A DNA stretch of 28,587 nucleotides from a virus. The notes beneath the pieces are model-generated. The model saw only the letters and a list, made by a program, of their open reading frames with translations. It did not search any database and was not told the origin of the DNA. Both the position numbers and the translations under genes were made by a program. How positions within the stretch are numbered: the stretch's first letter is position 1; each line of letters begins with the position of its first letter. Below, piece after piece: positions 2-22,776 of this stretch. The stretch lies in IMG/VR virus record IMGVR_UViG_3300048694_001276, positions 1-28,587 of that record; one strand, 5' to 3'.

Positions 2-403
2 AGGTTTTATCGCAGAGTATTCGATGACAACAATTTGCCCGATATATACAATGCCATAACCTATTGGCGACGCAGCGCCACGGCACAGGAATTTTTCAGC
101 ATCGTGCGTGACATATTCCAGTCCTGGCCCGATTACCAACGTTTATTGAAATTCCCTGAAGCACAGCCCAGCACCGATGTGGTCTATGCCATGGCAGCCC
201 AGATCATGGGAGTAGAACGAGTGACCTTGCCCCCGGGACTTGGTCCCACCATAGTGCACATGAAACAACACATGATAGGCACACGAACACCAGATTGGAC
301 ACGTGAGTTGATCTGGGAGTTTACACGACCCGGTCTGCGTATCAATACTGTGGCACAGTGGGGTTTGGTACATTATCACATCAAGGATTGGTTAGAACCG
401 TGA
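2..403 (+). CDS. C-terminal part of a probable glycosyltransferase-like phage protein (5' truncated)
   Basis: The reading frame is open from the left edge, so the gene starts outside the window; about 133 codons are visible. The segment near residues 10-35 (LPDIYNAITYWRRSATAQEFF) resembles the C-terminal region of nucleotide-sugar-transferase-like proteins of large marine phages, where a yF/W+rs motif precedes a helix ending in W. No catalytic DxD is visible in the part present. It is the first of a plus-strand operon with two further glycosyltransferase-like genes, and its TGA overlaps the next GTG start by 4 bases (GTGA). The family assignment rests on remembered pattern and context and is tentative; the coding status is firm. 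Confidence 0.55.
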   Translation, partial: RFYRRVFDDNNLPDIYNAITYWRRSATAQEFFSIVRDIFQSWPDYQRLLKFPEAQPSTDVVYAMAAQIMGVERVTLPPGLGPTIVHMKQHMIGTRTPDWTRELIWEFTRPGLRINTVAQWGLVHYHIKDWLEP

Positions 404-711
404 CACCCGATGAATTTTGGTCGGCACTGGCTCAGATGCCACAGCCGCACCCTGTGTTTTATAGACTGTACCATGATCAAAATGGTGACCCCATATGTTA
501 TACCATGGAGGATCTGCCTGGTAATTATATTGATATTGATGTTGATGTGTATAGATCTCAACCCCGGGAGGTCAAGGTCATCCGTGGTCGTTTGGTATAT
601 CTCACTCGCGGGTTGAAACTACGTCCCCGAGATTGGGGTACCAGTTGTGACCCCCGAGACGTTTGCGTGATCGTAGATCCCTCGCATCGACACATCACCT
701 GGAGTTATTGA
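400..711 (+). CDS. Conserved phage protein of unknown function, 103 aa
   Basis: The start is GTG at 400, overlapping the previous TGA by 4 bases. A longer upstream reading from 358 would overlap the previous gene by 46 bases and is less likely. The protein reads as a compact beta-rich domain: FYRLYHDQNGDPICYTMED near residues 18-36, then GNYIDID and a C-terminal CDPRDVCVIVD. Small proteins with the pattern 'YRLYyde.G.p..Yt.edl.GnYI.vd...dvcivvd' occur in T4-like marine phages, without known function. Its place between two glycosyltransferase-like genes suggests a part in the same pathway, but nothing in the sequence shows a reaction. Confidence 0.7.
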   Translation: MTPDEFWSALAQMPQPHPVFYRLYHDQNGDPICYTMEDLPGNYIDIDVDVYRSQPREVKVIRGRLVYLTRGLKLRPRDWGTSCDPRDVCVIVDPSHRHITWSY

Positions 712-712
712 C

Positions 713-1645
713 ATGAACGCAGTAGACATAGCTGATTTGGATGTGATTTATTTGACCTGGGATGAACCCCAGCGCGAAGAATCCTGGATACGCATACGCA
801 ACATGGTGCCCTGGGCTCGGCGCGTGGATGGTGTCAAAGGGTCTGATGCTGCGCACAAAGCCGCTGCCGAAGCCAGTACCACCGAACGCTTTATCCTGAT
901 CGATGGCGACAACGTGCCTGATCCCGAGTTTTTCAAACTCACGCTGGAATTCCGTGATACCACCTGGCAACAGGCAGTGTATCGTTGGCGGGCACGTAAT
1001 CATGTGAATGGTTTGATCTATGGCAATGGTGGTATCAGTTCTTGGACTCGCGAATTTGCACAGCGTATGCGCACTCACGAAAACAGCGATGGCCGAGCCG
1101 AGACTCAAGTAGAGTTCTGTTTTGATCCGCTCTATTGGCCCATGCATGACTGTTATTCGACAACCTATCCCAATGGTGATGCCTTTCATGCCTGGCGTGC
1201 TGGTTTCCGCGAAGGGGTCAAGATGTGTCTCGATCGTGGGCAACGTCTCTCTCCCAGCGACTTTCAAGCCCGGGTACATCAGCGAAACCTAGATCATCTC
1301 ACCATATGGCACAACATTGGATCGGATGTGGAACACGGTCGTTGGTGCATGGCCGGTGCTAGACAGGGCACCTACATGACCATGCTCACGAACTGGAACT
1401 ACCATGAGGTACAGGATTTTGATGCTCTGGCTCAATTGTGGACCACGGTAGAACAGTCAGATCCGCGTATCCTGGCCGGACAGGTGGGTATTGAATTACA
1501 TGCTCAATTGGATCTACCAGTGGCTCAGTTTGAATCGGAACAGAGCGCATTTTTCAAGCGACATTATCGGAGCAATTGGCGCAATCGTGGCCTCATGACA
1601 CGTGAACAAGATATCGCAACCAGGGAGCCTCATGCTGGAATTTGA
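713..1645 (+). CDS. Glycosyltransferase-like protein (GT-A type), 310 aa
   Basis: ATG at 713 lies one base after the previous TGA, with GGAG about 8 bases upstream. The N-terminal half fits a GT-A nucleotide-sugar transferase: strand VIYLTWDEP (residues 11-19), RVDGVKGSDAAHKAAAEAS (37-55), then ILIDGDNVPD with the DGD metal/nucleotide-binding motif at residues 64-66. Downstream, NGLIYGNGGISSW and AWRAGFREGVKM are shared in pattern with the gene at 11698-13023, so the two are paralogues. The likely role is transfer of a sugar from an NDP-sugar onto a phage or host polymer. Donor and acceptor are unknown. No signal peptide or membrane segment is seen, so it should act in the cytoplasm. Confidence 0.75.
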   Translation: MNAVDIADLDVIYLTWDEPQREESWIRIRNMVPWARRVDGVKGSDAAHKAAAEASTTERFILIDGDNVPDPEFFKLTLEFRDTTWQQAVYRWRARNHVNGLIYGNGGISSWTREFAQRMRTHENSDGRAETQVEFCFDPLYWPMHDCYSTTYPNGDAFHAWRAGFREGVKMCLDRGQRLSPSDFQARVHQRNLDHLTIWHNIGSDVEHGRWCMAGARQGTYMTMLTNWNYHEVQDFDALAQLWTTVEQSDPRILAGQVGIELHAQLDLPVAQFESEQSAFFKRHYRSNWRNRGLMTREQDIATREPHAGI

Positions 1646-2252
1646 CATAGGCGATCGAGACGTCGTGGTGTTGAGTAACTATCGCAGTGGTTCCTCGGCA
1701 TTTGGAAATGTGGTGTCACGTCGATATGGATTGACAGATCTTGGCGAAGCCCTACACCGATTCAAGCACCAACAATGGTACAACCAAAATAAAAAAGCCA
1801 AAAATCTCGTCAAGATCATGCCGGATCATTATGATCATCCCGAGTTTGAGAATATCATGACCAAGTCGTTTGTGATAGGTCTTTCCAGACGAGATGCGGC
1901 AGCACAGATCAGTAGTCTATATATCAGTGACATCACTGGGATATGGCATCGAGATTCTAAATCGCACGATGATTATGAAATCGACATCAATCGCGATCGT
2001 TTGGAAGCTGTAGCCAGGTATGTGCTACATCTGCGAGAGAAATACGAACTCATGCGCGGTCGTTGTGATGTACAATTGGAATATGAAGACATCCTGGATG
2101 GGTTGAAACAATCTCTTTATTTTGTCTATCAGAAACCACAGAACCATCAGGAACTGTTAGCACACGTACAGGACATACTTGAACATCATAACTACACACG
2201 ATTATTAGAACTCACTCACCGGGATTTTGAAACCATATGTCCAACATCTTGA
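1632..2252 (+). CDS. Sulfotransferase-like P-loop protein, 206 aa
   Basis: ATG at 1632 is preceded by GGGAG and overlaps the previous stop by 14 bases. The upstream in-frame start at 1602 has no better ribosome site. Residues 11-22 (VVVLSNYRSGSS) match the 5'-phosphosulfate-binding loop of sulfotransferases (strand followed by (P/Y)RSGS(S/T)). SRRDAAAQISSLY (residues 85-97) resembles the 3'-phosphate-binding R-D-...-S motif. Such enzymes move sulfate from PAPS to a hydroxyl or amine. The next gene is an APS-kinase-like protein, and APS kinase makes PAPS, which supports the assignment. At 206 residues it is shorter than typical sulfotransferases (250-300). It could instead be a kinase-like fold with another donor. 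Confidence 0.65.
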   Translation: MLEFDIGDRDVVVLSNYRSGSSAFGNVVSRRYGLTDLGEALHRFKHQQWYNQNKKAKNLVKIMPDHYDHPEFENIMTKSFVIGLSRRDAAAQISSLYISDITGIWHRDSKSHDDYEIDINRDRLEAVARYVLHLREKYELMRGRCDVQLEYEDILDGLKQSLYFVYQKPQNHQELLAHVQDILEHHNYTRLLELTHRDFETICPTS

Positions 2253-3088
2253 TCATGGGACTGCCTGGGTCGGGCAAGACCTATATGGCACAGGCCCTAA
2301 AACAGTATCTAGAACAACATTGGACCATCGCACACTTGCCCACAGAAGAATTTGCCGGTTTGGGTGAAAATTTTGCCAGTCCCCAGTGTCGGGTCAAGTG
2401 GTTCAACGCCGATGAAGTTCGCAGAGAATACAACGATTGGGATTTCAGCCGCGAAGGTCGCATACGCCAGAGTCTGCGCATGTTGAAGTTTGCACTCAAA
2501 AGTCAGGCCCACTATGCCATTTGCGACTTTGTAGCTCCTTTGCCTGAAATGCGACATAACTTCAAGGCCGATTGGACCATATGGATGGACACCATAGATC
2601 GTGGTCGTTATGAAGATACCAATCAGATGTTCGTGCCACCCGAAATCTATGACTTCCGCATCACCGAAAAAAATGCCGAGCAGTGGTCAGCATACATAGG
2701 TGATCGCATCCTGAATCAAAAGCGTAGACCACAGTTTGACTGGAAGCGACCCACGGTTCAAATGCTGGGACGCTGGCAACCTTGGCATGCCGGACATAGA
2801 GCTCTGTTTGAACGCCTACTGGCACGTACCGGACAAGTCATGATACAGATACGCGATGTGCAAGGTTGGCAGGGCAGTAATCCCTTTGCCATCGAGCAGG
2901 TGAAAAATTTCATCCGGCGTGACCTCGATCCACTCTATCAAGGGCAATATGACATCCAGACCGTACCCAACATCGTACACATAGGTTGGGGTCGTGGCGT
3001 GGGTTACACATCGGGTGAAGAAACATTTGACGACAGCATCACGGCGATCTCGGCCACCCAAATACGTCGGGAGATGGGACTAGAGTGA
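2237..3088 (+). CDS. APS-kinase-like / nucleotidylyltransferase fusion, 283 aa
   Basis: ATG at 2237 overlaps the previous gene by 16 bases. The N-terminal half is a P-loop kinase: Walker A GLPGSGKT at residues 8-15, then FNADEVRREYNDWDFS (56-71) and GRIRQSLRM (74-82), the adenylylsulfate-kinase type motif NaD.VR..ndWDFS..GR.rQ..RM. The C-terminal part from about residue 172 is a short HxGH nucleotidylyltransferase: GRWQPWHAGH (178-187) and ISATQIRREM (271-280), the two ends of an NMN-adenylyltransferase or cytidylyltransferase-like active site. The second domain is much shorter than ATP sulfurylase, so the fusion need not be a full PAPS synthase. Next to a sulfotransferase-like gene, PAPS supply is a fair inference. 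The substrate of the second domain is open. Confidence 0.75.
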   Translation: MSNILIMGLPGSGKTYMAQALKQYLEQHWTIAHLPTEEFAGLGENFASPQCRVKWFNADEVRREYNDWDFSREGRIRQSLRMLKFALKSQAHYAICDFVAPLPEMRHNFKADWTIWMDTIDRGRYEDTNQMFVPPEIYDFRITEKNAEQWSAYIGDRILNQKRRPQFDWKRPTVQMLGRWQPWHAGHRALFERLLARTGQVMIQIRDVQGWQGSNPFAIEQVKNFIRRDLDPLYQGQYDIQTVPNIVHIGWGRGVGYTSGEETFDDSITAISATQIRREMGLE

Positions 3089-4497
3089 ATCCCGGAGACG
3101 AGGTCAATGCGGAGTTCAAGAGCCAGTTTCTCTCCAGTGCCGAACAGATGCATCAGCAGCTGGGACCGGCTCTGTGCTTGGCCAAATGGCAGCAGGTGAG
3201 TCTGCACCTGCCCACTGGACTCAATAATAGTTGCTATCATCCGCCCCTGCATCGCATACCCGTGGAATCTATCGGACGCAATCCTGCAGCCTTGCACAAT
3301 ACCGACTATAAAAAACAGCAACGTCGACTCATGCTGGCCGGTGAACGACCTCGAGAATGCCAGTATTGTTGGAACATGGAAGATCAGGGCAAGCTGAGCG
3401 ATCGGCATTATCGCAGCGGTGAGCCATGGGCGGCTCGAGCATTTGATCACATACGAGATTTCACAGGGGATGAAGATGTTGTTCCCAGCTATGTCGAAGT
3501 CAATTTCAATCATGTTTGCAATCTTAGATGTAGCTATTGCAGCCCTCAGTTCAGTAGCTCATGGGCAGATGAAGTCGCTAGATTGGGAGCATACCCTACA
3601 CTAGTACCTCATAATGCTCCCGAGCATTTTGTTGGGGATCGTCGTCCTATACCTGCCCGTGAACACAATCCCTACGTAGAGGCCTTTTGGTCTTGGTGGC
3701 CCAAACTCTACCCTCAGCTGTCACATTTCCGTATGACTGGCGGAGAACCACTCCTGGATCGTAACACCTATCGCGTGTTTGATTATGTGCTAGAGCATCC
3801 GCGTCCGGATCTACATCTTTGTGTGACCAGTAACTTTTCTGTAGATGAACACAGTTGGCAACGCTACAAAAGTTATCTCCAGAAGCTGTGCCAAGATGGC
3901 CAGCTGGAACATTTCATGCAGTTCGTGAGTCTGGACAGCTGGGGCGATCAAGCTGAATACATACGGCATGGGCTGGACTTTGATCTGCTCTGGGATCGAG
4001 TGAATCAGTTTCTCACTGACATTCCCTCGCGCAATAGCATCACGTTCATAGTCACGATGAACAATCTATCAGTGCCAGGGCTAGAGAAATTGTTTGCAGG
4101 TATCCTGGGCTTGAGGAAAGCCTATAGTCACACCTATCAAAGAATATGGTTTGATACGCCGGTGTTGCGTCAACCGGCCTGGCAGAGTCTACAGATCCTG
4201 CCCGAAAGCTATGTGGATCGGCTGGAGCTGCTCTGGGCCTGGATGTTGCGCCAGATCGAAACGGCCGAGGACCGCTTCCATGGATTCAAGGATTATGAGA
4301 TCGCCCGCCTGGATCGAGACATAGCTTGGATGCGTGATGGGCAGCGGCAGCCCAGTCAAGAACGTCATCGCCACATGGCCGACTTCTATCGTTTCTTCAG
4401 CGAACATGACCGTCGTCGTGGGACAGATTTTTTGTCCACGTTTCCTGAGATGCAAGCCTGGTGGCAAGAATGTGAATATCATGCTCGGAAAGCATAG
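3085..4497 (+). CDS. Radical SAM protein with N-terminal twitch-like Cys segment, module 1 (470 aa)
   Basis: GTG at 3085 overlaps the previous TGA by 4 bases. The radical SAM cluster motif CX3CX2C is CNLRCSYC at residues 145-152, and GGEP, the SAM amino-group motif, is at 219-222. Ahead of the core lie C31 (LCLAKW), C50 (SCYHPP) and C92/C95 (CQYCWNMED), which look like ligands of an auxiliary iron-sulfur cluster. The order is the reverse of usual SPASM/twitch proteins, where the extra cysteines follow the core. The C-terminus ends with a D-RRG-TDF-STFP motif shared with the other modules. A cytoplasmic, oxygen-sensitive modifying enzyme is expected. Substrate unknown; no peptide precursor gene is adjacent. 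Confidence 0.88.
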   Translation: MNPGDEVNAEFKSQFLSSAEQMHQQLGPALCLAKWQQVSLHLPTGLNNSCYHPPLHRIPVESIGRNPAALHNTDYKKQQRRLMLAGERPRECQYCWNMEDQGKLSDRHYRSGEPWAARAFDHIRDFTGDEDVVPSYVEVNFNHVCNLRCSYCSPQFSSSWADEVARLGAYPTLVPHNAPEHFVGDRRPIPAREHNPYVEAFWSWWPKLYPQLSHFRMTGGEPLLDRNTYRVFDYVLEHPRPDLHLCVTSNFSVDEHSWQRYKSYLQKLCQDGQLEHFMQFVSLDSWGDQAEYIRHGLDFDLLWDRVNQFLTDIPSRNSITFIVTMNNLSVPGLEKLFAGILGLRKAYSHTYQRIWFDTPVLRQPAWQSLQILPESYVDRLELLWAWMLRQIETAEDRFHGFKDYEIARLDRDIAWMRDGQRQPSQERHRHMADFYRFFSEHDRRRGTDFLSTFPEMQAWWQECEYHARKA

Positions 4498-5572
4498 ATT
4501 AGCTCTAGATCGATTCACCGAAGCACATTGGATCCTGGAACACTATGCCGATGAGCAGTTTGCTCTATGGAGTGAAATTGTTCCAAGATCCGACACTGTG
4601 TATATCCTGGGACGCGAGGTCCTGGCCCAATCGTTCGCCGATATTCTTACCAGTGATGCCGGTAATCTCGTGTTTTGTAATCTAGCCGAGGGCAGCGAAA
4701 CCATAGAATGGCAGATGTGGAGACTGGGAGTGAGCGATCTTGTGCAGCGTGGACGATTGGGAATCATGCATGGTGGTGATCCTCTAGCACAGCTAGACAG
4801 CGTGAGATCCGACATACATTTCACAAACATAGTGGATTTCGTATCGAATCAACAGGCACATGCGCAGGCATCACAGGTACGAAACCCAGGCCCCAAACCC
4901 TATTCGTTCCTGATGTTGAATGGTCGATTGAGACCGCATCGCAAACACCTGATCGATCTGTTGCGATCTCGGGGGCTACTGGAACAGGCTTTGTGGACCA
5001 ATCTCCAGAGCACCGTAGATCCTCCCACGGGCTCAACTGCACATACCACTGAACCCATAAGATTATTGCCACCCCAGTATGAAATAGAGAGAACCAATCA
5101 GGCACTGCTTGACCAAGGTTGGATCAAGCCCCTATTGTTTGCGGGACTCAGTTGGGGTGATGCTGTGATCAATCCCCGGGCCTATATTGATAGCTATTTT
5201 AGCGTGGTAACCGAAACGGTATTCAGTCATACCTGTTCGTTCTTGACCGAAAAGACCTGGAAGCCCATGATTATGTGTCATCCCTTTGTGATAGCAGCCA
5301 ATCCCGGCTTCTACCGAGATTTGCGACGCAAAGGGTTCCAGACTTTTTCGCATGTGATTGATGAAAGTTTTGATCAGATAGAAAACGAGCAGGATAGAGC
5401 ACTAAGAATAGTTGAAGTTGTTCGAGATATATGCTACAATGGTGCCAGTGACTTCTTGATGTCAACCCAGGAACAGTGTGAGCATAACTATCAACAGCTA
5501 CAGATCTATACCAAACAGCAACGCCAACAACTCGTGATAGACCTTGAAAGATATCTTGACAAACGATCGTGA
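4481..5572 (+). CDS. Glycosyltransferase-like conserved phage protein, 363 aa
   Basis: ATG at 4481 gives MLGKHRLALDRF and a 17-base overlap with the previous gene; the longer reading from 4334 would overlap it by 164 bases. The most telling block is near residues 240-295: YFSVVTETVFS..., FLTEKTWKPMIMCHPFVI, then GFQTFSHVIDESFD. The pattern 'sVvtEt...fiTEKt.Kpi...hPFi...p..l..lr..GF.TF...idEsyD' recurs in phage and bacterial proteins beside glycosyltransferases and resembles the C-terminal Rossmann half of fucosyltransferase-type GT-B enzymes. The first half has no motif I recognise. Its position between two radical SAM genes ties it to their pathway. The glycosyltransferase role is inference. 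Confidence 0.65.
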   Translation: MLGKHRLALDRFTEAHWILEHYADEQFALWSEIVPRSDTVYILGREVLAQSFADILTSDAGNLVFCNLAEGSETIEWQMWRLGVSDLVQRGRLGIMHGGDPLAQLDSVRSDIHFTNIVDFVSNQQAHAQASQVRNPGPKPYSFLMLNGRLRPHRKHLIDLLRSRGLLEQALWTNLQSTVDPPTGSTAHTTEPIRLLPPQYEIERTNQALLDQGWIKPLLFAGLSWGDAVINPRAYIDSYFSVVTETVFSHTCSFLTEKTWKPMIMCHPFVIAANPGFYRDLRRKGFQTFSHVIDESFDQIENEQDRALRIVEVVRDICYNGASDFLMSTQEQCEHNYQQLQIYTKQQRQQLVIDLERYLDKRS

Positions 5573-6896
5573 TTTCCTACATCAGGTACTGAATCCCATC
5601 AGTGCCAGTTTTTGTGCAGCCAAATGGTACAATGCTACCATTTGGTTGGGTAGCGGCATGACTACATCATGCCATCATCCCCCGGCTCATTTGGTAGACA
5701 AAGATAAGGTCCGCACCAACCCTAGGCTGCTGCACAATACCCCTGAGAAAAAACAGGATCGAGCACAGATGCAGGCGGGTCAGCGCCCCCGAGGTTGTGA
5801 ATACTGTTGGAAGATCGAAGATATCAATCGTGATGCCATCAGTGACCGCGTGTACAAAAGCCGCATCTATCCTATACAGGCTCTAGAACAGGCCCGGAAT
5901 ATGCCCACGGATCAGGATGTGAATCTCCGTACCTTGGAAATCAGTTTTGATCGTACCTGCCAGTTCGCTTGCAGTTATTGCAATCCTGCCTTTTCTAGCA
6001 CCTGGGTACGAGACATACAAAACAACGGCGCCTACCAAGCACTCACCAGCGATGGACGCAATCACTTCACCCACACCCACGACAGTGCCCAACTATATCG
6101 ATTTGGTGAAACCAATCCCTATGTAGAGGCCTTCTTTGAGTGGTGGGAAAGTGATCTACATCGTACCCTGCAGGAACTTAGGATCACCGGCGGCGAACCC
6201 TTGATGTCGGGCTACACCTGGAAACTGATTGATTGGTTCAAACACAATCAAGGACGCAGTCAGACTCAGCTGGCCATCAACAGCAATCTTGGCATGCCCC
6301 GGGATCGAGTGGAATATTTTCTGCACAGAGTAGAGGATATCGAGCACCTTGATATCTACACCAGCAATGAAGCCTGGGGTATCCAAGCCGAATATATTCG
6401 CGATGGTCTAGATTTTGGTCAGTGGACAGAAAATGTGCATTTGATCTTGGATCGATCTCACATACGCACTCTGCACAGTATGTGCACCATAAATGCTCTG
6501 TGCCTGGATAGCCTGCCCGAGTACCTGACCTGGCTCCTGGCTCTCAAACAGACCTATGGTCGAGATCGCGTGAGTTTTACCCTCAACATTTTGCGATTCC
6601 CCAGCTTCCAATCATGCCTGGTTCTGCCGCAGTGCTATCGAGACCATTATCGCGAACGTCTAGAAGACTGGCGTGATTACAACCATGACAATCCGCTTTT
6701 GCATGAACATGAACTCAATCATGTGCAACGTTTGATAGACTACCTAGATGTAGTCAAGACACCACACAGCGAATCTTTTGACCTGCCCCAGTTACAACAA
6801 GATTTTCGTATATTCTATCAGCAGTATGATCAACGTCGAGGCAAGGACTTCGTCAAGACATTCCCATATCTCAAGGACTGGTATGAGTCATTATAA
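5556..6896 (+). CDS. Radical SAM protein with N-terminal twitch-like Cys segment, module 2 (about 446 aa)
   Basis: No ATG or GTG is in a suitable place. TTG at 5556 follows GAAAG by six bases and overlaps the previous stop by 17 bases; TTG at 5544 is the alternative. The radical SAM motif is CQFACSYC at residues 135-142 and GGEP at 212-215. N-terminal cysteines are C20 (FCAAKW), C39 (SCHHPP) and C81/C84 (CEYCWKIED). With module 1 it forms a subtype in which the usual CC pair is replaced by C followed by HPP. C-terminal RRGKDFVKTFP repeats the motif of module 1, so the two are paralogues, although a different gene lies between them. Substrate unknown. Confidence 0.87.
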   Translation: MTNDRDFLHQVLNPISASFCAAKWYNATIWLGSGMTTSCHHPPAHLVDKDKVRTNPRLLHNTPEKKQDRAQMQAGQRPRGCEYCWKIEDINRDAISDRVYKSRIYPIQALEQARNMPTDQDVNLRTLEISFDRTCQFACSYCNPAFSSTWVRDIQNNGAYQALTSDGRNHFTHTHDSAQLYRFGETNPYVEAFFEWWESDLHRTLQELRITGGEPLMSGYTWKLIDWFKHNQGRSQTQLAINSNLGMPRDRVEYFLHRVEDIEHLDIYTSNEAWGIQAEYIRDGLDFGQWTENVHLILDRSHIRTLHSMCTINALCLDSLPEYLTWLLALKQTYGRDRVSFTLNILRFPSFQSCLVLPQCYRDHYRERLEDWRDYNHDNPLLHEHELNHVQRLIDYLDVVKTPHSESFDLPQLQQDFRIFYQQYDQRRGKDFVKTFPYLKDWYESL

Positions 6897-9366
6897 AAAT
6901 TTTGAAAATATCAAACCCATTGATCTCAATCCCAAACAGCAATTTTTACTCAAAGAATCCAAGGTTTTTTGTATGTTGCCCTGGGTTCATTTGTATATGA
7001 ATGCGGATGGATCATCTCATCCCTGTTGTCTCACTGATTTTTCGGTTGCCAAACCACTGGGTGATTGTAACACCACTAGCATGGAAGAAATTTGGAACAG
7101 TGAGGGTATGCGTCAATTGCGCAATGACATGTTGATTGGCCAGGCCAGCAAATCATGCAACAAATGTTATGAACAAGAGAAATTTGGCTTTATCAGTCAA
7201 CGACAATCGGCGAACCGCCGTCATGGTCATCATATCCCCATTATAGAAGAAACCAAGTTGGATGGATCGCTTGATAGATTTGAGATGAGGTATTGGGATT
7301 TACGATTTAGCAATCTCTGTAATTTACGCTGTCGCAGTTGTGGTCCACAATTTTCTAGCCAATGGTATCAAGATCAGATACGCATATACGGTCAAGGGTA
7401 TGCAGACAATCATCAGGCATTGCTACATTCCGGCAGATGGGATACTGATATCTTTGATCAGTTGATGTCGCATATAGATCATGTGGAACATATCTATTTT
7501 GCCGGCGGTGAACCCTTGATCATGGAAGAGCATTATCGTATTTTGGATGAATTGATCCGGCGCAAACGATTTGATGTTAGATTGGTTTATAACACCAACT
7601 TTACGCAAACTCGATTGCGGGGGCGTAGTGTGTTTGATTATTGGCGGCAGTTTCAAACTGTGGCAGTTGGCGCCAGTCTTGACGCCATGGGTACCCGGGC
7701 AGAATATATTCGCAAAGGTACGCATTGGCCGGATGTTGAAAACAATCGTAGACACATGATCGAGGTATGCCCCAATGTTGATTTCTACATTTCATCCACG
7801 ATCAGTATTCTCAATGCCTGGCACATACCCGATTTTCATCGTAACTGGACGGAGCAGGGTCTGATCAAAGCACGAGATTTCAATATAAATCTATTGCAAG
7901 GTCCCGACTGGCTGCGACTTGATATCGCACCACAGCATTACAAAGAACTGGTGAAAGAAAAAATACAACAGCACCTGGAATGGTTGAAACCACAAGATGA
8001 TCTCACAAGAGCCACCCTGGGATTTGAAAGCGTGATCAATTTCATGATGAACGATGACAAGAGTGATTATTTGTCTAAGTTCTGGGAATATAATGGTCGG
8101 ATAGACACTGTAAGGAATGAATCTCTGTTTGACGCCATACCCGAACTGAAAAATTTGCTAGAACCAACCAAGACTTTCTGTATGTTGCCCTGGATCAGTC
8201 TGGAAACGTCGGCCACGGGCTCGATACGTCCCTGTTGTCTTGCCAGAGACAATATAACCAATGATCAGGGCGAAAAATTTTCCCTAACCAATGCTGCATT
8301 GAGCGAGGTTCAAAACAGCAATTATATGCGTAACCTACGTAGAGAGTTACTCGAGGGTCGCAAGCCAGACACATGTGCCAGTTGCTGGAATGAGGAGCGA
8401 TCGGGTCGTGTGAGCAAACGCATGAATACCACGCACAAATTACGACATCTGGCGCATCAAATACCGTTCACCACCGATCCTGGTCCTTTGTTGTTTTTGG
8501 ATTTGAAATTGGGCAATTTGTGCAACCTCAAATGTCGTATATGCGGGTCTTGGGCTTCTAGCTCGGCTGCCGTGGAAGAACTACAGCAGTTGAGTCTTGA
8601 TAAACAACGTCAGAGCCATCACTATGATATGTTACGGCGCGGTAATTGGCCTCAAGATAATCCAGGATTTTGGCAACAGATACAGGAACTGTTGGGGCAA
8701 ATACGTTATATAGAGTTTTCAGGTGGTGAACCGTTCATGATCATGCAGCACTTTGATCTACTGGAAAAAATAATACAATATGGTCAAGCCGATAAAGTGG
8801 AAATTCACTACAATACCAACGGCACTCAATGGCCTGCTAGAGGTCCAGATATCTGGAAGCATTTCCAAAAAGTTGAGATAGCATTCAGTATCGATGACAT
8901 CGACCACAGATTTGAATACCAAAGAACCAATGCCAAATGGCAACAGGTGTGTGACACCCTTGATCGATTCAAAGCTCTGCGCGGAATGAATACAAATATA
9001 AAGTTACAAAGTTGTAGCACGGTGAATGTGTTCAATGTCATGTATCTGCCGCAATTGGCCAACTGGCTTGATCGACAGGGTTTTGACTATATCTACTGGA
9101 ATATGTTACATGAACCACTGGATCTTTCATGTGCCAGCCTGAGTGATGACGCAAAACAAATAGCCTGTGGTCGGTTGAAAGAATCTGGTGTGAGAGCCTG
9201 GCATCGGACTGAGTTTGCTCGCATCATAAATTTTATGCAGCAAGCATCTGGTCAGGACAATAAAAAGCTGTTGCGAAAGATCCAAGAACTGGATCGTCGT
9301 CGGCACACTGATTTGAGAAACCATCACCCTGAATTGGCCGCTGCGATTGGTTATGAAGGCAATTGA
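6883..9366 (+). CDS. Tandem double radical SAM protein, two complete N-twitch modules in one chain (827 aa)
   Basis: ATG at 6883 gives MSHYKNFENIK and overlaps the previous gene by 14 bases; extension to 6778 would lie inside that gene. Module A has FCMLPW (C30), CC48-49, C92/C95, CNLRCRSC at 146-153 and GGEP at 208-211. Module B repeats everything about 400 residues later: FCMLPW (C433), CC451-452, C498/C501, CNLKCRIC at 547-554 and GGEP at 614-617. Both halves end with a D-x-R-x-x-(D/S)-L motif followed by a P-E-L element (near 405-422 and 803-818). All cysteines of both cores are intact, so both sites could be active. It may do two successive steps, or one half may act as carrier or partner. 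Confidence 0.9.
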   Translation: MSHYKNFENIKPIDLNPKQQFLLKESKVFCMLPWVHLYMNADGSSHPCCLTDFSVAKPLGDCNTTSMEEIWNSEGMRQLRNDMLIGQASKSCNKCYEQEKFGFISQRQSANRRHGHHIPIIEETKLDGSLDRFEMRYWDLRFSNLCNLRCRSCGPQFSSQWYQDQIRIYGQGYADNHQALLHSGRWDTDIFDQLMSHIDHVEHIYFAGGEPLIMEEHYRILDELIRRKRFDVRLVYNTNFTQTRLRGRSVFDYWRQFQTVAVGASLDAMGTRAEYIRKGTHWPDVENNRRHMIEVCPNVDFYISSTISILNAWHIPDFHRNWTEQGLIKARDFNINLLQGPDWLRLDIAPQHYKELVKEKIQQHLEWLKPQDDLTRATLGFESVINFMMNDDKSDYLSKFWEYNGRIDTVRNESLFDAIPELKNLLEPTKTFCMLPWISLETSATGSIRPCCLARDNITNDQGEKFSLTNAALSEVQNSNYMRNLRRELLEGRKPDTCASCWNEERSGRVSKRMNTTHKLRHLAHQIPFTTDPGPLLFLDLKLGNLCNLKCRICGSWASSSAAVEELQQLSLDKQRQSHHYDMLRRGNWPQDNPGFWQQIQELLGQIRYIEFSGGEPFMIMQHFDLLEKIIQYGQADKVEIHYNTNGTQWPARGPDIWKHFQKVEIAFSIDDIDHRFEYQRTNAKWQQVCDTLDRFKALRGMNTNIKLQSCSTVNVFNVMYLPQLANWLDRQGFDYIYWNMLHEPLDLSCASLSDDAKQIACGRLKESGVRAWHRTEFARIINFMQQASGQDNKKLLRKIQELDRRRHTDLRNHHPELAAAIGYEGN

Positions 9367-10657
9367 TAGACCGCCCAACTTGTGCATGGCCGCTTGGACG
9401 CACACATATCTCAGTCCGCAAACCGAGCGTAGGATGTGTTGTGCCAGTCGTGAACCTGCACAGAATTTCCAACAGTATATCGACACGGCCGCGGGTACCG
9501 GTCGATATATTCCCATCACTCTAGAGGAACACTGGAACTCCGATCACATGCGTGGGGTTCGACAGCGCATGATGGCTGGGGAAACCTTGCCCGAATGTGA
9601 AGTGTGTAATCACAAACTCTTGAACACTGATGTGTATCGTGACTATTTCAATCAGCTGTTTGGCGATCGATATCAAGAGGCCATGAGCAAGACCTCGCCT
9701 GATGGATCCACTGAGATGTTGCCCTTGAGTTGGGACTATCGCTTTTCCAACCTCTGCAATTTCAAGTGTCGCACCTGCGGAGATATGTTGAGCAGCGCCT
9801 GGGAAACCGAACAACGACAATCAGGAACGATTGACTATACAGATTCGCGCAATGCCTGGATGGTGCCCCACGTAAGACGCGAAATCACTCGGTTCCAGGA
9901 CAACGAAATTGAACAGGAATTCGCCGAAGCTGTAGAACAACATCGAGTAGAAGAGATCTACTGGGTAGGCGGTGAGCCTCTCATGTATGAGCAACACTGG
10001 AGATACATGCGCCGCATAATAGAACTAGGTGATGGCCCGCGTGTATATGCCAGATACAACACCAATCTCAGCCGAGTAGATCATGGGGAACTGAATCTAT
10101 GGCGTGATATCTTGGCACATGTACGGGATTGGCAGATCTGCGCCAGCCTAGATGGCACCGGTGCCACGGGCGAGTACATCAGGACTGGATTAGATTTCTC
10201 GCAATGGTGTCGTAACTTTGAACACGGTCTCCGATATCAACGACACAGCCGTCAGATGCGTATTGATTTTACCCTGACATTGCCGGGGCTCTTGGAAGTC
10301 GTCGCTATACAAGAACTGGCCAAAAGTTACAACGTAGATGTTTTGGCCAAAGTAATTTTTAGTTTCAGTCCAAACGTTGTCATGAGTCCCTTGGCATTGC
10401 CTAGACATCTGCTAGAGAAAAAACTAGATGAGTTGATACCCCAGACTCAATCGGCATTGAAAGATGTTTTGATGCAACTCAAGTCTCGTCCTACATTCCA
10501 GGAGCAATGGCCTCAGGAATGGCAACGAGGATTGGCACAGGGGAAACGTAGACTGATGCACCTAGAAAAAATACGCAACGACACCTATACCATGTCAGAT
10601 ATCTTAGCAAAGGATCCCGAACTCTATGAGTGGTGGCAAAATATTAGATCAGATTGA
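9353..10657 (+). CDS. Radical SAM protein with N-terminal twitch-like Cys segment, fifth module (434 aa)
   Basis: ATG at 9353 overlaps the preceding TGA by 14 bases. Core motif CNFKCRTC is at residues 135-142 and GGEP at 206-209. Auxiliary cysteines are C11 (LCMAAW), CC29-30, C82/C85 (CEVCNHK). The CC pair groups it with the two halves of the preceding gene rather than with modules 1 and 2. The segment after the second cysteine pair lacks the W-x-x-E of the others (CEVCNHKLL), a small divergence. The C-terminal TMSDILAKDPELYEWW matches the PEL-type ending of its paralogues. Fifth of five modules in 7.6 kb; substrate unknown. Confidence 0.88.
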   Translation: MKAIDRPPNLCMAAWTHTYLSPQTERRMCCASREPAQNFQQYIDTAAGTGRYIPITLEEHWNSDHMRGVRQRMMAGETLPECEVCNHKLLNTDVYRDYFNQLFGDRYQEAMSKTSPDGSTEMLPLSWDYRFSNLCNFKCRTCGDMLSSAWETEQRQSGTIDYTDSRNAWMVPHVRREITRFQDNEIEQEFAEAVEQHRVEEIYWVGGEPLMYEQHWRYMRRIIELGDGPRVYARYNTNLSRVDHGELNLWRDILAHVRDWQICASLDGTGATGEYIRTGLDFSQWCRNFEHGLRYQRHSRQMRIDFTLTLPGLLEVVAIQELAKSYNVDVLAKVIFSFSPNVVMSPLALPRHLLEKKLDELIPQTQSALKDVLMQLKSRPTFQEQWPQEWQRGLAQGKRRLMHLEKIRNDTYTMSDILAKDPELYEWWQNIRSD

Positions 10658-11705
10658 GATGGTGCTGCGAGGCGCTCATGACCAGATCACTGTCTTGATA
10701 GACGTCAGTGATAACAGTCTCAGTCGCAAGTGGCTATCGGCCCTGGATACGCTCCTGCGTGACGGTTATCATCTCGAAAAGAACTATTGCTTCGTGGGAT
10801 TCGCCGATAGTCCGCGCAATGGCCAGTACATACTGGATCAAGTGAACCGCAGCATCCAGGCCATCAATCAAGCCAACCTAGGCTATCAGATCAGTGATGA
10901 GTTTTCTATCGATTTATGCCTGGAGTCGGGTCCGATCGGTACTGGGCTACCGGGTCGAAAAATCGTGAAGGAACGTCTCAATCGCCTGCATCGTTACTTT
11001 GAAGATCTCCAGGGCGTGAGTGGCCGGATGAGTGTCTATGCACAACGCGCCGACGCTGCCACAAAATGGCATATCCGGCAGCTCAATTTACTGTGCCATG
11101 AGTTTGAATGCTGGGCCACCAGCTACCGCAAACAGATCCAGGCACCCGAATGGCAACGTCCCAGCCAGCTCATGTGTTGGTTGAATGCGCCTAGATTCAC
11201 TCTGGATGAACAGGATTATGAACTGTTTGGCATAGAGACTATCAATCGCTCCCTGGGTGGTGTGTTCGTGGGGGTAAACAAGGCCGTGGGCAAACATCAC
11301 TGGGAGGTGTTCCAAGACGAAGGTCGAGACAGCCGGGTGGGTGAGCTGATTACTAGCACTCTTCGCAGCCAGACCGAAGCTGCTGGGGATTTTGATATCG
11401 AGTGGGCCAATGATCCCGGGCAGTATGAATTCCAACAACGTTCTCTACAGCAATTCCGTGAATGGCTAGTGGCCAATAGATTTGATCCCGATGATCCGGC
11501 ACTGACCATAGGACACCCGCAAGTGGGGCAGGTCCGGATCGAGGAAAGTTTTGGTACCACAGACTTCTGGTCCATATGGCGCATACTGTGTCAGCATCTT
11601 GATGTCGCCAGCATACGTACCGGATCTGCATATCAAGAGTATGACTATCACTGGAGCGATCCGGACTTCCAACAACGACAGATTCGCTGTATCCAACATG
11701 TTTGA
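10626..11705 (+). CDS. Conserved phage protein of unknown function in the radical SAM operon, 359 aa
   Basis: ATG at 10626 overlaps the radical SAM stop by 32 bases. ATG at 10659, one base after that stop, is a plausible alternative and would remove 11 residues. Near the N-terminus LIDVSDNSLSRKWLSAL (residues 23-39) and LEKNYCFVGF (50-59) form a pattern I associate with uncharacterised proteins of T4-like marine phages. No cysteine motif, P-loop, signal peptide or membrane segment is visible. Aromatic and charged residues are spread evenly, as in a soluble enzyme or scaffold. Its strict place behind the radical SAM genes makes it a candidate partner or substrate-binding protein. No function is claimed. 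Confidence 0.75.
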   Translation: MSGGKILDQIEMVLRGAHDQITVLIDVSDNSLSRKWLSALDTLLRDGYHLEKNYCFVGFADSPRNGQYILDQVNRSIQAINQANLGYQISDEFSIDLCLESGPIGTGLPGRKIVKERLNRLHRYFEDLQGVSGRMSVYAQRADAATKWHIRQLNLLCHEFECWATSYRKQIQAPEWQRPSQLMCWLNAPRFTLDEQDYELFGIETINRSLGGVFVGVNKAVGKHHWEVFQDEGRDSRVGELITSTLRSQTEAAGDFDIEWANDPGQYEFQQRSLQQFREWLVANRFDPDDPALTIGHPQVGQVRIEESFGTTDFWSIWRILCQHLDVASIRTGSAYQEYDYHWSDPDFQQRQIRCIQHV

Positions 11706-13023
11706 CGTTTTCATCATGGATCTGGGTGGACATCCGGACAATGTCCAAAACCTCCAGCAACGATTACCCCATGCACAGGTACTGAGATGGACTGATCATC
11801 TGCATACCATCCGGCGCGCCATGTCTCAATGCCGTACTAGATCAGCATGGATCGTGAGCTCGTGTATAGATTACGCTGACTTTGATTGGCTTTGGGAACC
11901 CAGCCCCTGGCAATCGCATCAGATACATTGTTGGCCTAGCGGTCAGCAGAGATTCGGCGATACCTTCTTGATACCCCGGGCCGAATGGGACGCTCAAGTG
12001 GCCGGCCTTGAACGTCTGGAACAATTCCGCGATGTGAACTTTGAACATCAGTCTTTGCCGAGACTGCCCTGGCAGACCGTGCAATACCAACAGGATACCA
12101 TACCCCAGGCCCAGGCGCAGGTAGAGTTCAAGACTCCCTATGTCTGGTTTACTAACCAAAACTCTGTGTATGACACAGATGCTTGGCTATGGCGAGAATC
12201 TCCGGTGGTATCGGAGATCCAGGGCAACGGATCCAGCCTGGTACCTAGATCGGCCCATGCCATGATCAATACACAGGTCTACGACTATCCTTGGTTGGAA
12301 CACGTCCCGGGTGGGTCTCCGACCAACCCTTTAGATATAGTGTTTATCAGCAACGGCGAGCGTGGTGCTTGGGGTAACCTCCTGCACCTCGAATGGGCCG
12401 TACAGAGATGTGACGGTAATCGCATACATCGTGTGGAGGGAGTCCAGGGACGGGTGGCAGCATATCAGGCCGCGGCCCGAGCCAGCCAAACTGACTGGTT
12501 CTTTGCAGTGTTTGCCAAGCTAGAAGTCTCCAGCAATTTTGATTGGTCCTGGCAACCAGACCGATGGCAACAGCCCAAACATTATATCTTTCATGCAGCG
12601 AATCCCATCAATGGTTTGGTATACGGACACCAGGCCATGATTGCCTACAACAAGAATCTGGTGCTAGACAATCCCGGAACTGGGCTGGATTTCACCCTGG
12701 ATCAACCGCACGAAGTGGTACCCATCATATCAGGCACGGCCATGTATTTTGACACACCCTGGATGGCCTGGCGCACAGCATTCCGCGAAGCCATCAAGCT
12801 ACGCCATAGTCTGCCCAACGTGGAAAATCAATATAGATTGAGCCAATGGCTCCGGGAGTCCAACGCTCTCAAGAATGCCGAATGGAGCCACATGGGTGCC
12901 CAAGATGCCATGGAATACTATGACTCAGTTTCGGGTGACTTTGACCAGCTGCGCAAGAGCTACGAGTGGTCCTGGCTGGCTAGCTATGCACTGCTGCGCA
13001 GGAATCTCGCAGCTGATCTATGA
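11698..13023 (+). CDS. Tandem glycosyltransferase-like protein with lost DxD, 441 aa
   Basis: ATG at 11698 overlaps the previous stop by 8 bases. Two similar halves are visible. Residues 1-95 contain FDWLWEPSPWQ (62-72). Residues 212-320 contain DIVFISNGE, RVEGVQGRVAAYQAAARAS (245-263), FDWSWQPDRWQ (281-291) and NGLVYGHQAMIAYNK. The second half aligns by eye with the 310-aa protein at 713-1645, including AWRTAFREAIKL against AWRAGFREGVKM. Where that paralogue has LIDGDNV this one has AVFAKLEV, so the acidic metal motif is gone. It may be a binding or regulatory subunit rather than a transferase. It is the last plus-strand gene and converges with the aminotransferase, overlapping it by 44 bases. 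Confidence 0.7.
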   Translation: MFDVFIMDLGGHPDNVQNLQQRLPHAQVLRWTDHLHTIRRAMSQCRTRSAWIVSSCIDYADFDWLWEPSPWQSHQIHCWPSGQQRFGDTFLIPRAEWDAQVAGLERLEQFRDVNFEHQSLPRLPWQTVQYQQDTIPQAQAQVEFKTPYVWFTNQNSVYDTDAWLWRESPVVSEIQGNGSSLVPRSAHAMINTQVYDYPWLEHVPGGSPTNPLDIVFISNGERGAWGNLLHLEWAVQRCDGNRIHRVEGVQGRVAAYQAAARASQTDWFFAVFAKLEVSSNFDWSWQPDRWQQPKHYIFHAANPINGLVYGHQAMIAYNKNLVLDNPGTGLDFTLDQPHEVVPIISGTAMYFDTPWMAWRTAFREAIKLRHSLPNVENQYRLSQWLRESNALKNAEWSHMGAQDAMEYYDSVSGDFDQLRKSYEWSWLASYALLRRNLAADL

Positions 13024-14101
13024 TATACTCCACTTCGAGATCTGTGAGTTCGGGATAGATAGGCAGACTCAGCACACGCCGGCTCAGTGCTGTGGCCTTG
13101 CTCAACATATCAGGCCCCGGGCAATGCTGATAGGCCCCCATCTCGGTCAGTGGTTGCGAGTAGTGTATGCGGGTTTCTACCCGGCGTAGGGTCATTTGTT
13201 CCTGTATGCGATCGCGTTGATCAGTGTCGATCACAAATTTGTGGAAACAATGATCTTCGACGTTGGTGTCATCTATGAGACAACGCATGGGAGTATCCCG
13301 GAGGCGATCCATCCAATGCCGTGCTATGTCTGATCTGCGCTGTTGCCATTGATCCAAGTGTCGAGTCTTGACCATCATTTGGGCACAATCTACTTCGCTC
13401 ATGCGGCTGTTGGTCACCGCGTGGTTGTGATGAAAGTCGCCCTGGCGTCCGTTGTCCCGCCACTGTCGGGCGAACTCGGCCAACATGACATTGTTGGTGA
13501 GTACGGCACCACCATTGCCAAAATTACCAAGGTTTTTGGTGGGGTCAAAGCTGATGGCAGCGGCATAGCCTATGCGAACACAATTGGCGCTGAGCCAGTG
13601 TTGTGCGGCATCTTCTATCAGTAGGGCAGTGTTGATGTTGAGCATGCGCCAACGATCATAGTTGGGGATATGCACCAGGCTGGCACCATACAATCCCACG
13701 GAGCACACAGCTTCATACTCAACGAGCTCGGGAACACAGTTGAGGTCCAGGATACCGCGACGATCCACATCAACAAAATGTATATTCCACCCGGCTCGCC
13801 ACCAGGCATTGGCCGTGGCTGGATAGGTCAACGCCGGTAACAGCACCCGGGGCGTGGATACGTTGCCATGCTCTTGGGCATAGTATGTGGCTATGACCTC
13901 CAGGGCCTGGGTACCCGAGTGGCACGTTATGGCGTATTGGGTGCGATTGCGCTGGCTCAACCAATGTTCAAACTCCGCGCACCAGTTGCCATTCATGACC
14001 TGGCCACTGCGCAATACTTGATCAGTGACATCCAGGATCTCCTGACGGAGGTTATGATACTGCTTTTGGAGACCAATAAAGGGAATTTTTAAGCCAGTCA
14101 T
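12980..14101 (-). CDS. DegT/DnrJ/EryC1/StrS-type sugar aminotransferase, 373 aa
   Basis: ATG at 14101 gives MTGLKIPFIGLQKQY, the classic family N-terminus; the frame is open 44 codons further up but that would lie inside the epimerase. PLP-binding features are visible: CHSGTQAL at residues 60-67, VLLPALTYPATANA (86-99), LIEDAAQH (161-168) with the acidic residue that contacts the pyridine nitrogen, and FDPTKNLGNFGNGGA (185-199) with the Schiff-base lysine K189. These enzymes transfer an amino group from glutamate to a 3- or 4-keto NDP-sugar. It overlaps the upstream epimerase by 50 bases, and the pair probably makes an amino sugar for the glycosyltransferases on the opposite strand. Confidence 0.88.
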   Translation of the reverse strand: MTGLKIPFIGLQKQYHNLRQEILDVTDQVLRSGQVMNGNWCAEFEHWLSQRNRTQYAITCHSGTQALEVIATYYAQEHGNVSTPRVLLPALTYPATANAWWRAGWNIHFVDVDRRGILDLNCVPELVEYEAVCSVGLYGASLVHIPNYDRWRMLNINTALLIEDAAQHWLSANCVRIGYAAAISFDPTKNLGNFGNGGAVLTNNVMLAEFARQWRDNGRQGDFHHNHAVTNSRMSEVDCAQMMVKTRHLDQWQQRRSDIARHWMDRLRDTPMRCLIDDTNVEDHCFHKFVIDTDQRDRIQEQMTLRRVETRIHYSQPLTEMGAYQHCPGPDMLSKATALSRRVLSLPIYPELTDLEVEYIIDQLRDSCAAVHS

Positions 14102-15023
14102 GGTAAGCCACGAAACCTTGTTCAATGTTGATTTGGGGATCAAAACCCAGATAATCTCGGGCACAATTGATATTGAGAGCACCACGACGTGGATAATCTT
14201 GATTGCGATCCACCACTTCGATACGGCCAGCACCGGCTATGCTCACGGCCAATTCCGCCGCCTCCATCAGGGTGCGAGCATGACCGCGACTGATGTTATA
14301 GGTGTGTATGCGATCATTGTCGGTGATCGCGGCTGCCACTATGCCCGAGGCTGTGTCATCCACGTAGGTAAAATCCAGAGATTCGTTGGGACCATGCACA
14401 CGCAGAGTTTGATCACGCATGGCCGACAGCAAAAATCGGCTCACCACACGATCTTCCACGTCACCGGGTCCATACACCGCACTGGGGCGAACTATGGTGT
14501 AGTCAAAACATCCGCGTCGGTGATAATCACGTACCAACCACTCCCCGGCTAGTTTCATGATACCATACTGACCCTGGGGTTCGCACGAGGACCACTCGGG
14601 ACAATCACCCACGAAGTCACCATAGACCATGCTGCTACTGACATAGACGAACTTTTTGACCCCGTGTTGCTTCGAGTGCTCCAGGAGGTTCAGCAGGCCT
14701 TCGCTCATGGCCCGGCTACCCAATTGGGGATTGGCATTCACAGCTTTTTGTCTGGGAAAGCTGGCTAGGTGTATGACCATGGCGGGTTCGTGTACCCGCA
14801 TCAGATAGTCAATGCCCCCGGCATCGGTGATGTTGATGCTGTGTATGTGTGTGGTACGTATGTTCCGGACTCGTTCCTGCATCACGTAGTCCAGCTCGGC
14901 CTGGGGTATCAGGCCATACGTGGTGCGGGTGTCAGTGATGACGACATCGTGTCCTAGAGCTTCTAGCAGAGCAACCACGCGGTGCCCCACAAACCCTAGA
15001 CCACCAGTGACTAGTATTTTCAT
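14052..15023 (-). CDS. NAD-dependent epimerase/dehydratase (extended SDR), 323 aa
   Basis: ATG at 15023 has AGGTGG about 8 bases upstream; GTG at 15032 is a weaker option. The ATG overlaps the upstream TGA as ATGA. The NAD-binding glycine motif GGLGFVG is at residues 7-13, the acidic residue D31 follows strand 2, SSSMVYG lies near 129-135, and the YxxxK catalytic pair is Y153/K157. RPSAVYGPGD and FTYVDD are further family landmarks. Members epimerise, dehydrate or reduce NDP-sugars; the exact reaction cannot be read. Together with the aminotransferase directly downstream it suggests an NDP-amino-sugar branch. Confidence 0.88.
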   Translation of the reverse strand: MKILVTGGLGFVGHRVVALLEALGHDVVITDTRTTYGLIPQAELDYVMQERVRNIRTTHIHSINITDAGGIDYLMRVHEPAMVIHLASFPRQKAVNANPQLGSRAMSEGLLNLLEHSKQHGVKKFVYVSSSMVYGDFVGDCPEWSSCEPQGQYGIMKLAGEWLVRDYHRRGCFDYTIVRPSAVYGPGDVEDRVVSRFLLSAMRDQTLRVHGPNESLDFTYVDDTASGIVAAAITDNDRIHTYNISRGHARTLMEAAELAVSIAGAGRIEVVDRNQDYPRRGALNINCARDYLGFDPQINIEQGFVAYHDWLKNSLYWSPKAVS

Positions 15024-17252: not shown

Positions 17253-18581
17253 TCAGCGATGATCGTCGTAGAGCGCAAACACACCAAAGGGCGGGTTTGG
17301 ATTGGGATCACCATGGATGATCCACGTGGTATCGCAGTAGTTGGGGTCACCCCAGCTGCCACAGGGATAGCCATCCGTGAACACGATCAGTTTCTTGGGT
17401 TCAATCTCGGCGTCTTTGAGATACCGGAACATGCACTCAAAGTCGGTACCGCCACCACCGGCCAACTCGTATTCAGCGATGTCTTCGAGATTCTCGCTGT
17501 TGTATTGCTGCGGGTTGTAGACTTTGGTGTCAAAACACGCGATATGAACACGATAATTTTCAAACGTCTCCATGATGCCTTTGATCTCGCTGATGAAGTC
17601 ACGAGCTTGCTCTTCACCAATGCTACCGGACATGTCCAGGAAGCACACGATATCAATGGCATCGGTAGTCTTCATGCCTGGCATGATCGCATCCATGTGC
17701 CAACCTTTGCGGCTCGCTCGCATAAAGGTAAAGTCACTTTTGATGGTGCTCTGGATCTGCTGGCGGATCAGCTCGCGCCAGTTCATCTTGGGTTCAGTGA
17801 GGTCCCGGATCATGCGTTTGACACCCGCGGGCAGCTCGCCAGCACCGCAGGTCTGGGCAGCACTGATCACAGCTTCTTTGATCTCATCGCGGATCTGTTG
17901 TTTTTCTTCTTCGGTGAGTTGGGGGCGACCTTTGCCCTTTTGATCGCCACTGCCGCTGCCACCGCTGTCACCTTCACCCTCACCATCCAGGTGATCGTCC
18001 AGCAGCTGATTGATCAGCTGATCCAGAGTGACCTGTTGGACGTTCTTCATGAGATCGTCATAAACTTCTTCGGAACTCTTGCCATCGTATTTTGCATCAT
18101 ACAGGCACGGCACCGAAGTGATGAATTCGCCCACGCGATGTTTCTTGAGATCACCGTTGACACAATAGTCGTTCGCGATGTTCCAGATCTGGGGATCGCG
18201 CTCGCCACGACGACCAAAGTGATCATAAACGCAGTGGAGGACCTCGTGTCCAAACAGGAACTCGATCTCACGGGGCCGCAGCATCTTGATGAACCGGGTG
18301 TTGTAGTAGAAGTGACGGCCATCTGTGGCAGCGGTAGCGCACCATTCGTCGGCGTTGACGAGTTTGAGTCGGGTGGCCAAGTTACCAAAGAAGCTACTCT
18401 TGAGCAGCAAGCTCACGCGGGCAGTGACCAGCAGCTCGCGCACTTCACGGTCCAGTTTGGTGTCCATGGGGCCAATCAAGTTGGCGAAACGTTTGGCGTC
18501 GTCTTTGTTCTGGGTGCCTGTAGCCGTTCGAGCCTGGAGCGTATTGTGCAGCACAGTGGGACGATAAAATTGCAGTGACAT
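17253..18581 (-). CDS. VWA domain protein with N-terminal HExxH metallopeptidase-like domain, 442 aa
   Basis: ATG at 18581 with AAGGAG nine bases upstream; the frame upstream of it crosses the promoter. Residues about 30-150 form a metallopeptidase-like domain with FGHEVLHCVYDH (HEVLH at 112-116). A linker rich in G, S, D and E (198-217) separates it from a von Willebrand A domain with MIDAS residues CFLDMSGSIG (DMSGS 316-320), GGGGTDFE and FTDGYP. Proteins of this build (putative metallopeptidase plus VWA-like) are coded beside MoxR AAA+ ATPases in bacteria and large phages; here the ATPase is 0.7 kb upstream. They probably act as a metal-dependent remodelling pair on a protein complex. The target is unknown. 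Confidence 0.88.
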   Translation of the reverse strand: MSLQFYRPTVLHNTLQARTATGTQNKDDAKRFANLIGPMDTKLDREVRELLVTARVSLLLKSSFFGNLATRLKLVNADEWCATAATDGRHFYYNTRFIKMLRPREIEFLFGHEVLHCVYDHFGRRGERDPQIWNIANDYCVNGDLKKHRVGEFITSVPCLYDAKYDGKSSEEVYDDLMKNVQQVTLDQLINQLLDDHLDGEGEGDSGGSGSGDQKGKGRPQLTEEEKQQIRDEIKEAVISAAQTCGAGELPAGVKRMIRDLTEPKMNWRELIRQQIQSTIKSDFTFMRASRKGWHMDAIMPGMKTTDAIDIVCFLDMSGSIGEEQARDFISEIKGIMETFENYRVHIACFDTKVYNPQQYNSENLEDIAEYELAGGGGTDFECMFRYLKDAEIEPKKLIVFTDGYPCGSWGDPNYCDTTWIIHGDPNPNPPFGVFALYDDHR

Positions 18582-18606
18582 CGTGGACTCCTTGTAGTAT
18601 TTCAAT

Positions 18607-22690: not shown

Positions 22691-22710
22691 TACCAAACAG
22701 CTACAAATAG

Positions 22711-22734: not shown

Positions 22735-22776
22735 GGAAGATTCTGTTTCTTGGGCTCCCACCCTCAGCAGCCGGTT

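Follow-up and report, generated by a model that had tools for sequence, protein, structure and literature searches.

Ordered arrays of five N-twitch radical SAM enzymes in phages, with a bacterial counterpart: a candidate sugar-editing pathway

What does a phage do with five radical S-adenosylmethionine (SAM) enzymes encoded one after another? The question is raised by the IMG/VR virus record IMGVR_UViG_3300048694_001276, a 28.6 kb fragment (28,587 nucleotides, called here the window), in which a run of overlapping genes on the + strand extends from the left edge to position 13023. Four of these genes encode five radical SAM modules: A, B, C fused to D, and E. An initial annotation, made by a model from the letters alone, had already placed five modules in four genes, and each of them was recovered above the cut-off of the family NF033640. 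According to our analysis, the modules probably form a pathway for the chemical editing of sugars on a surface structure. It is unusual for a phage to have five radical SAM paralogues that are ancient, non-redundant and fixed in their order. The array is composed as follows:

3085..4497, + strand: class A N-twitch radical SAM enzyme; 470 aa; NF033640 312.8 bits; clade A, one copy per locus in 54 loci
5556..6896 (5544 as alternative start), + strand: class B N-twitch radical SAM enzyme; 446 aa; NF033640 290.8 bits; clade B, support 1.0
6883-9366, + strand: double gene with two modules, 6958-8157 and 8170-9342
6883..8157, + strand: class C module, first half of the double gene; NF033640 410 bits; AlphaFold2 model; a separate gene in nearly all relatives
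8170..9366, + strand: class D module, second half of the double gene; NF033640 343 bits; clade D
9353..10657, + strand: class E N-twitch radical SAM enzyme; 434 aa; NF033640 279.9 bits; clade E, support 1.0

All five modules matched the full length of the NCBIfam model NF033640 (N_Twi_rSAM) at 279-410 bits, far beyond chance and above the curated cut-off of 170 bits. This family, which the initial annotation had missed, has been named by NCBI with no function assigned. Pfam Radical_SAM and SPASM gave a strong match for the double protein only (SPASM at residues 30-96) and weak matches for the other array proteins; thus, only the specific model NF033640 reveals the full picture. In the window alignment, the auxiliary residues C5, W9, C24, C67 and C70 and the core residues C121, C125 and C128, together with GGEP, are invariant; across 289 related modules, conservation of these cysteines (four auxiliary, three core) is 97-100%. 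Membership in the radical SAM superfamily is evident from the invariant CX3CX2C and GGE motifs and from a core fold that matches anSME, BlsE, viperin and MoaA with a probability of 1.00. The auxiliary pattern described initially was correct as to the conserved cysteines ahead of the core, but the second cysteine of modules A and B lies in SC(Y/H)HPP and not in a CC pair.

The canonical SPASM/twitch layout, with the auxiliary domain C-terminal to the core, was found in none of the five modules. In all of them, the alignment and a profile match to BtrN place the twitch-type auxiliary cysteines N-terminal to CX3CX2C. When PDB sequences were searched with a profile built from 82 modules, BtrN (PDB 4m7t) was matched with an E value of 3.6e-7 for the whole chain. 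The N-terminal domain of the profile (positions 11-83) aligned with BtrN residues 184-259, the C-terminal twitch, while the start of the core (104-147) aligned weakly (9.8 bits) with residues 10-53. On the basis of these positions, the N-terminal domain of the modules is homologous to the C-terminal twitch of BtrN, and the domain order is reversed. The N-terminal twitch that the initial annotation had recognized is supported both by this homology and by the NF033640 match. In the alignment with BtrN, the CxxC and the first cysteine agree exactly and the second cysteine is shifted by one residue. BtrN catalyses the two-electron dehydrogenation of an aminocyclitol and has a low-potential auxiliary cluster with four cysteines (PMC9012708); it shares the four-cysteine twitch domain with the modules, but has 270 aa against about 400 aa and the opposite domain order.

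The AlphaFold2 model of module C is highly confident (predicted local distance difference test score, pLDDT, 96.5; predicted template modelling score, pTM, 0.92). Compared with the PDB by Foldseek, it matched the radical SAM core only, at a template modelling (TM) score of at most 0.41 of the query, in CteB, the sugar-nucleotide enzyme BlsE, anSME, viperin and MoaA. Against BFVD, it matched full-length viral relatives at a TM score of 0.95, and also Q6WHP4 of KVP40. Since Foldseek aligns sequentially, it is unable to show whether a reversed twitch domain occupies the corresponding position.

Given the chemistry of BtrN, the four invariant auxiliary cysteines and the sugar-type neighbours described below, the reaction with the best support is a radical oxidation or epimerisation at sugar carbons. 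The core cluster would cleave SAM, and the resulting 5'-deoxyadenosyl radical would abstract a hydrogen atom from a carbon of the sugar; the electron would pass to the four-cysteine twitch cluster, as in BtrN, and a hydroxyl would thus become a ketone or the carbon would be inverted. A DegT aminotransferase and an epimerase could elaborate the edited sugar further, as could a NodU-type carbamoyltransferase and amidinotransferase-like enzymes in the relatives, and the enzymes cl1 and cl2 may attach it.

Is such an array peculiar to the window? A scan of viral records yielded 58 loci, nearly all with 3 to 7 such genes and always on one strand; some phages carry 13-14 N-twitch radical SAM genes. 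The tree of 289 modules comprised five clades, A (support 0.96), B (1.0), C (0.91), D (0.72) and E (1.0), of which C and D are broad and include copies from a second phage lineage. The order A-B-C-D-E was observed in 36 of the 37 viral loci having B or E (the exception is A-B-C-E-D), with the double gene of the window represented by two adjacent genes in nearly all relatives. Among 28 non-redundant full sets, identity inside a class goes down to 38-52%, and the distance matrices of the classes are correlated (Mantel r 0.38-0.81, p 0.001). The multistep set postulated in the initial annotation gains weight from this order and from co-occurrence in bacteria. The second phage lineage has the arrangement A-C-C-C(-D-D), with another radical SAM gene, cl11, where cl3 stands in the first: cl3 is present in 34/37 first-lineage and 0/22 second-lineage loci, and cl11 in 0/37 and 19/22, respectively.

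Local copy-number changes in some loci (an extra B, C or D, or divergent copies) could suggest that the modules are recent, redundant tandem duplicates retained by chance. This is extremely improbable, as the window paralogues of different classes are 20-33% identical and carry class-specific residues, their order was held in all but one of the loci mentioned, and bacterial B and E co-occur even where they are unlinked. The recent-duplication reading was rejected on the identity and order data. In a 289 kb phage record, one N-twitch gene (G003:C1:193107-194384) contains two internal stops in its reading and is therefore probably decayed or mis-assembled.

What surrounds the array? The remaining genes of interest in the window are listed here; the run of + strand genes is followed by the DegT aminotransferase, the epimerase, ThyX and others on the - strand.

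2..403, + strand: cl2 gene, 3' end only; by eye, similar to glycosyltransferase-A; no match in Pfam
358..711, + strand: cl8, small protein conserved in alignment; members in 27 loci
713..1645, + strand: cl1, GT2/GT-A-like glycosyltransferase candidate; Pfam Glyco_tranf_2_3 19.4 bits, sub-threshold
1602..2252, + strand: protein carrying a P-loop-like YRSGSS motif; no match in Pfam, NCBIfam or PDB
2237..3088, + strand: fusion of a P-loop kinase, adenosine phosphosulfate (APS) kinase/KTI12-like, with a nucleotidyltransferase-like domain; PF01583 25.4 bits; TIGR01527 at residues 176-243; phrog_10255 145.8 bits
4490..5572, + strand: cl6, possible glycosyltransferase between A and B; members in 32 loci
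10626..11705, + strand: cl3, orphan protein after E; in the second phage lineage, its place is taken by cl11, a radical SAM gene
11695..13023, + strand: second cl1-type (GT-A-like) protein, downstream; clusters with 713-1645
12980..14233, - strand: DegT/DnrJ/EryC1/StrS sugar aminotransferase; PF01041 190.7 bits
14052..15032, - strand: NAD-dependent nucleotide-sugar epimerase/dehydratase; PF01370 143.3 bits; phrog_540

In the relatives, the usual upstream order is the tail-fibre-like cl10, cl5, cl4, cl2, cl2, cl8 and cl1, followed by A-E and then cl3; cl1 stands immediately ahead of the array in 37 loci. The virion-like cl5 (~310 aa, with a FASADQARYFFNAGG motif) sits inside this conserved gene run. 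In the 182 kb relative G002, which has a T4-like gp20 portal and a sheath, genes for a baseplate wedge, for fibres and for a virion structural protein of 4915 aa lie upstream of the cassette; the T4-like genome thus has the cassette next to its baseplate and tail-fibre genes. Downstream, the 37 relatives' loci contain the NodU-type carbamoyltransferase (22/37), DegT (18/37) and the epimerase (14/37). This location in a tail-tip/host-recognition region makes a rare, heavily modified glycan on a virion appendage such as cl5 the most likely product. Such a setting fits the radical SAM cassettes with glycosyltransferases in pelagimyophage host-recognition clusters (PMC7029224) and the T4-like marine phage genome TARA_ERS488813_N000010, with its 12 radical SAM genes (PMC5332604).

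Could the substrate be a peptide or a protein instead? From A through the cl3 gene after E, the window genes overlap or nearly abut, and the array contains neither a small gene nor a gap of any size; likewise, 156/197 gaps in the relatives are <= 30 bp, so that few of them have space for a peptide gene. No linked small precursor peptide gene was found in the window array, and only cl4 and cl8 (about 100-125 aa) occur upstream. The initial statement that no precursor of a ribosomally synthesized and post-translationally modified peptide (RiPP) is visible therefore holds, and a RiPP reading was rejected on the gap data. In our main alternative, the substrate would be a virion protein (cl5 or a tail fibre), whose amino acids the enzymes would epimerise, crosslink or oxidise in the manner of SPASM enzymes acting on RiPPs or sulfatases. 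SPASM-type domains mostly act on peptide and protein substrates, which, together with the fact that cl5 travels with the genes, makes protein modification a real rival; CteB and anSME are also the best core fold matches. We nevertheless regard it as unlikely, given that the array has no precursor-sized gene or gap, its neighbours are sugar enzymes, and bacterial A-E arrays occur beside polysaccharide genes and without cl5.

A nucleotide or nucleic acid substrate, such as a hypermodified base or a small nucleotide, appears very unlikely. In its favour are the similarity of the core to viperin and MoaA, at the level of both sequence and fold, and the kinase-nucleotidyltransferase that adjoins A; however, the neighbourhood is one of tail and glycan genes and not of replication, the cassette contains no DNA-modification genes, and such a function would not usually involve five paralogues kept in order.

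Do cellular organisms carry the same pathway? The initial annotation had overlooked that the same five classes are present on bacterial chromosomes. A single-protein genome scan revealed two bacterial loci only, and it was widened by searches across the class of G007, a metagenome-assembled genome of Bdellovibrionales (129 genomes). Strong NF033640 matches were found in 63 of these, with up to 12 per genome, which amounts to a large expansion of N-twitch genes in the class. The Bdellovibrionota-type chromosome G122 has all five classes in the order B-E-D-C-D-A-B-A, beside obg and other housekeeping genes, and its copies are 53-56% (B), 50% (A) and 47% (E) identical to those of the phages. Within the class, B orthologues (>=43% identity) occur in 9 genomes, E orthologues in 6 and both in 5 (Fisher p 2.7e-6, kinship ignored); in 3 of these 5, B and E are unlinked, lying on separate contigs or tens of kb from each other. 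Bacterial B copies adjoin genes for ABC-2 exporters, GT1, DegT, a carbamoyltransferase and a protein whose resemblance to nucleotidyltransferases is limited to a motif.

Near one B copy, a radical SAM/SPASM-DegT fusion lies beside an ABC-2 exporter (L126 18036-19973, genome G054), and a similar-looking gene is found at L129 2133-4085; the fusion may combine the logic of BtrN and an aminotransferase in a single protein.

In genome G064, a chromosomal cl5-cl4-cl2-cl2-cl8-like-cl1 run precedes N-twitch genes (G064:C21:131388-138400, loci L115/L119), about 4 kb past an apparent pheT and near the contig end; no further phage genes were recognised nearby. This genome is the sole carrier of cl5 in the class. 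As 128/129 genomes lack it, the enzymes do not require cl5 as a partner, and its candidacy as the obligatory substrate was dropped.

The polysaccharide export loci around bacterial B copies also bear on another alternative, in which the same sugar chemistry acts on the host envelope, remodelling O-antigen or capsule during infection, e.g., to block adsorption by other phages. The glycosyltransferases of pelagimyophage host-recognition clusters, which also hold radical SAM cassettes, are interpreted in this way in PMC7029224. On the other hand, the cassette directly follows baseplate/tail-fibre genes on the same strand, suggesting late expression with virion parts, and cl5 lies within the conserved gene run. 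We consider envelope remodelling somewhat unlikely, and infer that the acceptor is a virion appendage or a host glycan.

Taken together, these results lead us to favour, tentatively, the possibility that A-E are an ordered set of five specialised N-twitch radical SAM oxidoreductases acting on successive positions of one carbohydrate, with a glycan carried by the virion as the product. Several points weigh against it: no NF033640 member found here has a demonstrated substrate, and twitch homology does not transfer substrate; the top core folds include the peptide-modifying CteB and anSME besides the sugar-nucleotide BlsE, with none above the TM value given; the glycosyltransferase calls for cl1 and cl2 are weak; and cl5 is missing from nearly all genomes of the bacterial class. 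It is conceivable, though rather doubtful, that phages and Bdellovibrio-type bacteria share an ancient five-step reversed-twitch radical pathway for a radical-edited surface glycan, which the phages would use as a virion decoration in host recognition. Should the sugar reading hold, the phage would encode in this array a radical pathway that edits a surface glycan, and NF033640, a large family without function, would gain a testable substrate class. The bacterial arrays open the pathway to study without the uncultured phage.

The initial annotation had also named two findings that would speak against it, but the genes stay linked in the relatives, and the modules belong to NF033640, which has no assigned substrate, and not to a characterised family with a known unrelated one. 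The proposed glycan setting is supported by the carbamoyltransferase, DegT, the epimerase, weak glycosyltransferases and the bacterial polysaccharide exporters, but sugar and virion protein as substrates are not separated by them. For 713-1645, the basis of the glycosyltransferase-like label is the sub-threshold Pfam match, and the sulfotransferase proposed for 1602-2252 found no support in Pfam, NCBIfam or PDB searches.

How far was this known? Radical-SAM-rich T4-like phages were known before, while the array with its order and classes, and its counterpart in bacteria, appear to be new within the open-access literature searched. The family definition of NF033640 covers all five modules, but ordered five-class arrays are not part of it. 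As far as the excerpts of PMC5332604 and PMC7029224 go, the marine phages share with our loci the many radical SAM genes and the tail/host-recognition cassettes with glycosyltransferases; what is reported there is presence, and not the five-enzyme order, classes, reversed domains or bacterial counterparts. Vibrio phages K566/K567 in INPHARED also have a cluster of three or more N-twitch radical SAM genes, but these are only about 22-27% identical and the A-E order is absent. Searches of INPHARED by tblastn with cl5, cl8, cl3, cl2 and cl4 gave no matches; hence, no close cultured member of the clade is present in that collection.

Among the neighbouring genes, 2237-3088, initially called APS-kinase-like, does have a P-loop kinase part, but this is fused to a nucleotidyltransferase-like C-terminal part, and the fusion could activate a phosphorylated small molecule. 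Its phrog_10255 kin are found in Stenotrophomonas and Xanthomonas phages. No family match was obtained for cl6 in NCBIfam, Pfam and PHROG searches. The conserved family cl3 has a confident predicted fold (pLDDT 88) with no PDB fold match at E<=0.001, so the fold gives no functional clue.

Further along the - strand, the window contains a pair formed by a VWA-like putative metallopeptidase (DUF2201; 17253-18635) and a MoxR-like AAA ATPase (19276-20349). It also carries a permuted tmRNA gene (22709-23135, - strand), which is unusual for a phage; its top match is a betaproteobacterial tmRNA (RF01850, 147 bits), with the tag ANDNVYALAA, and this sequence likeness suggests a betaproteobacterial host.

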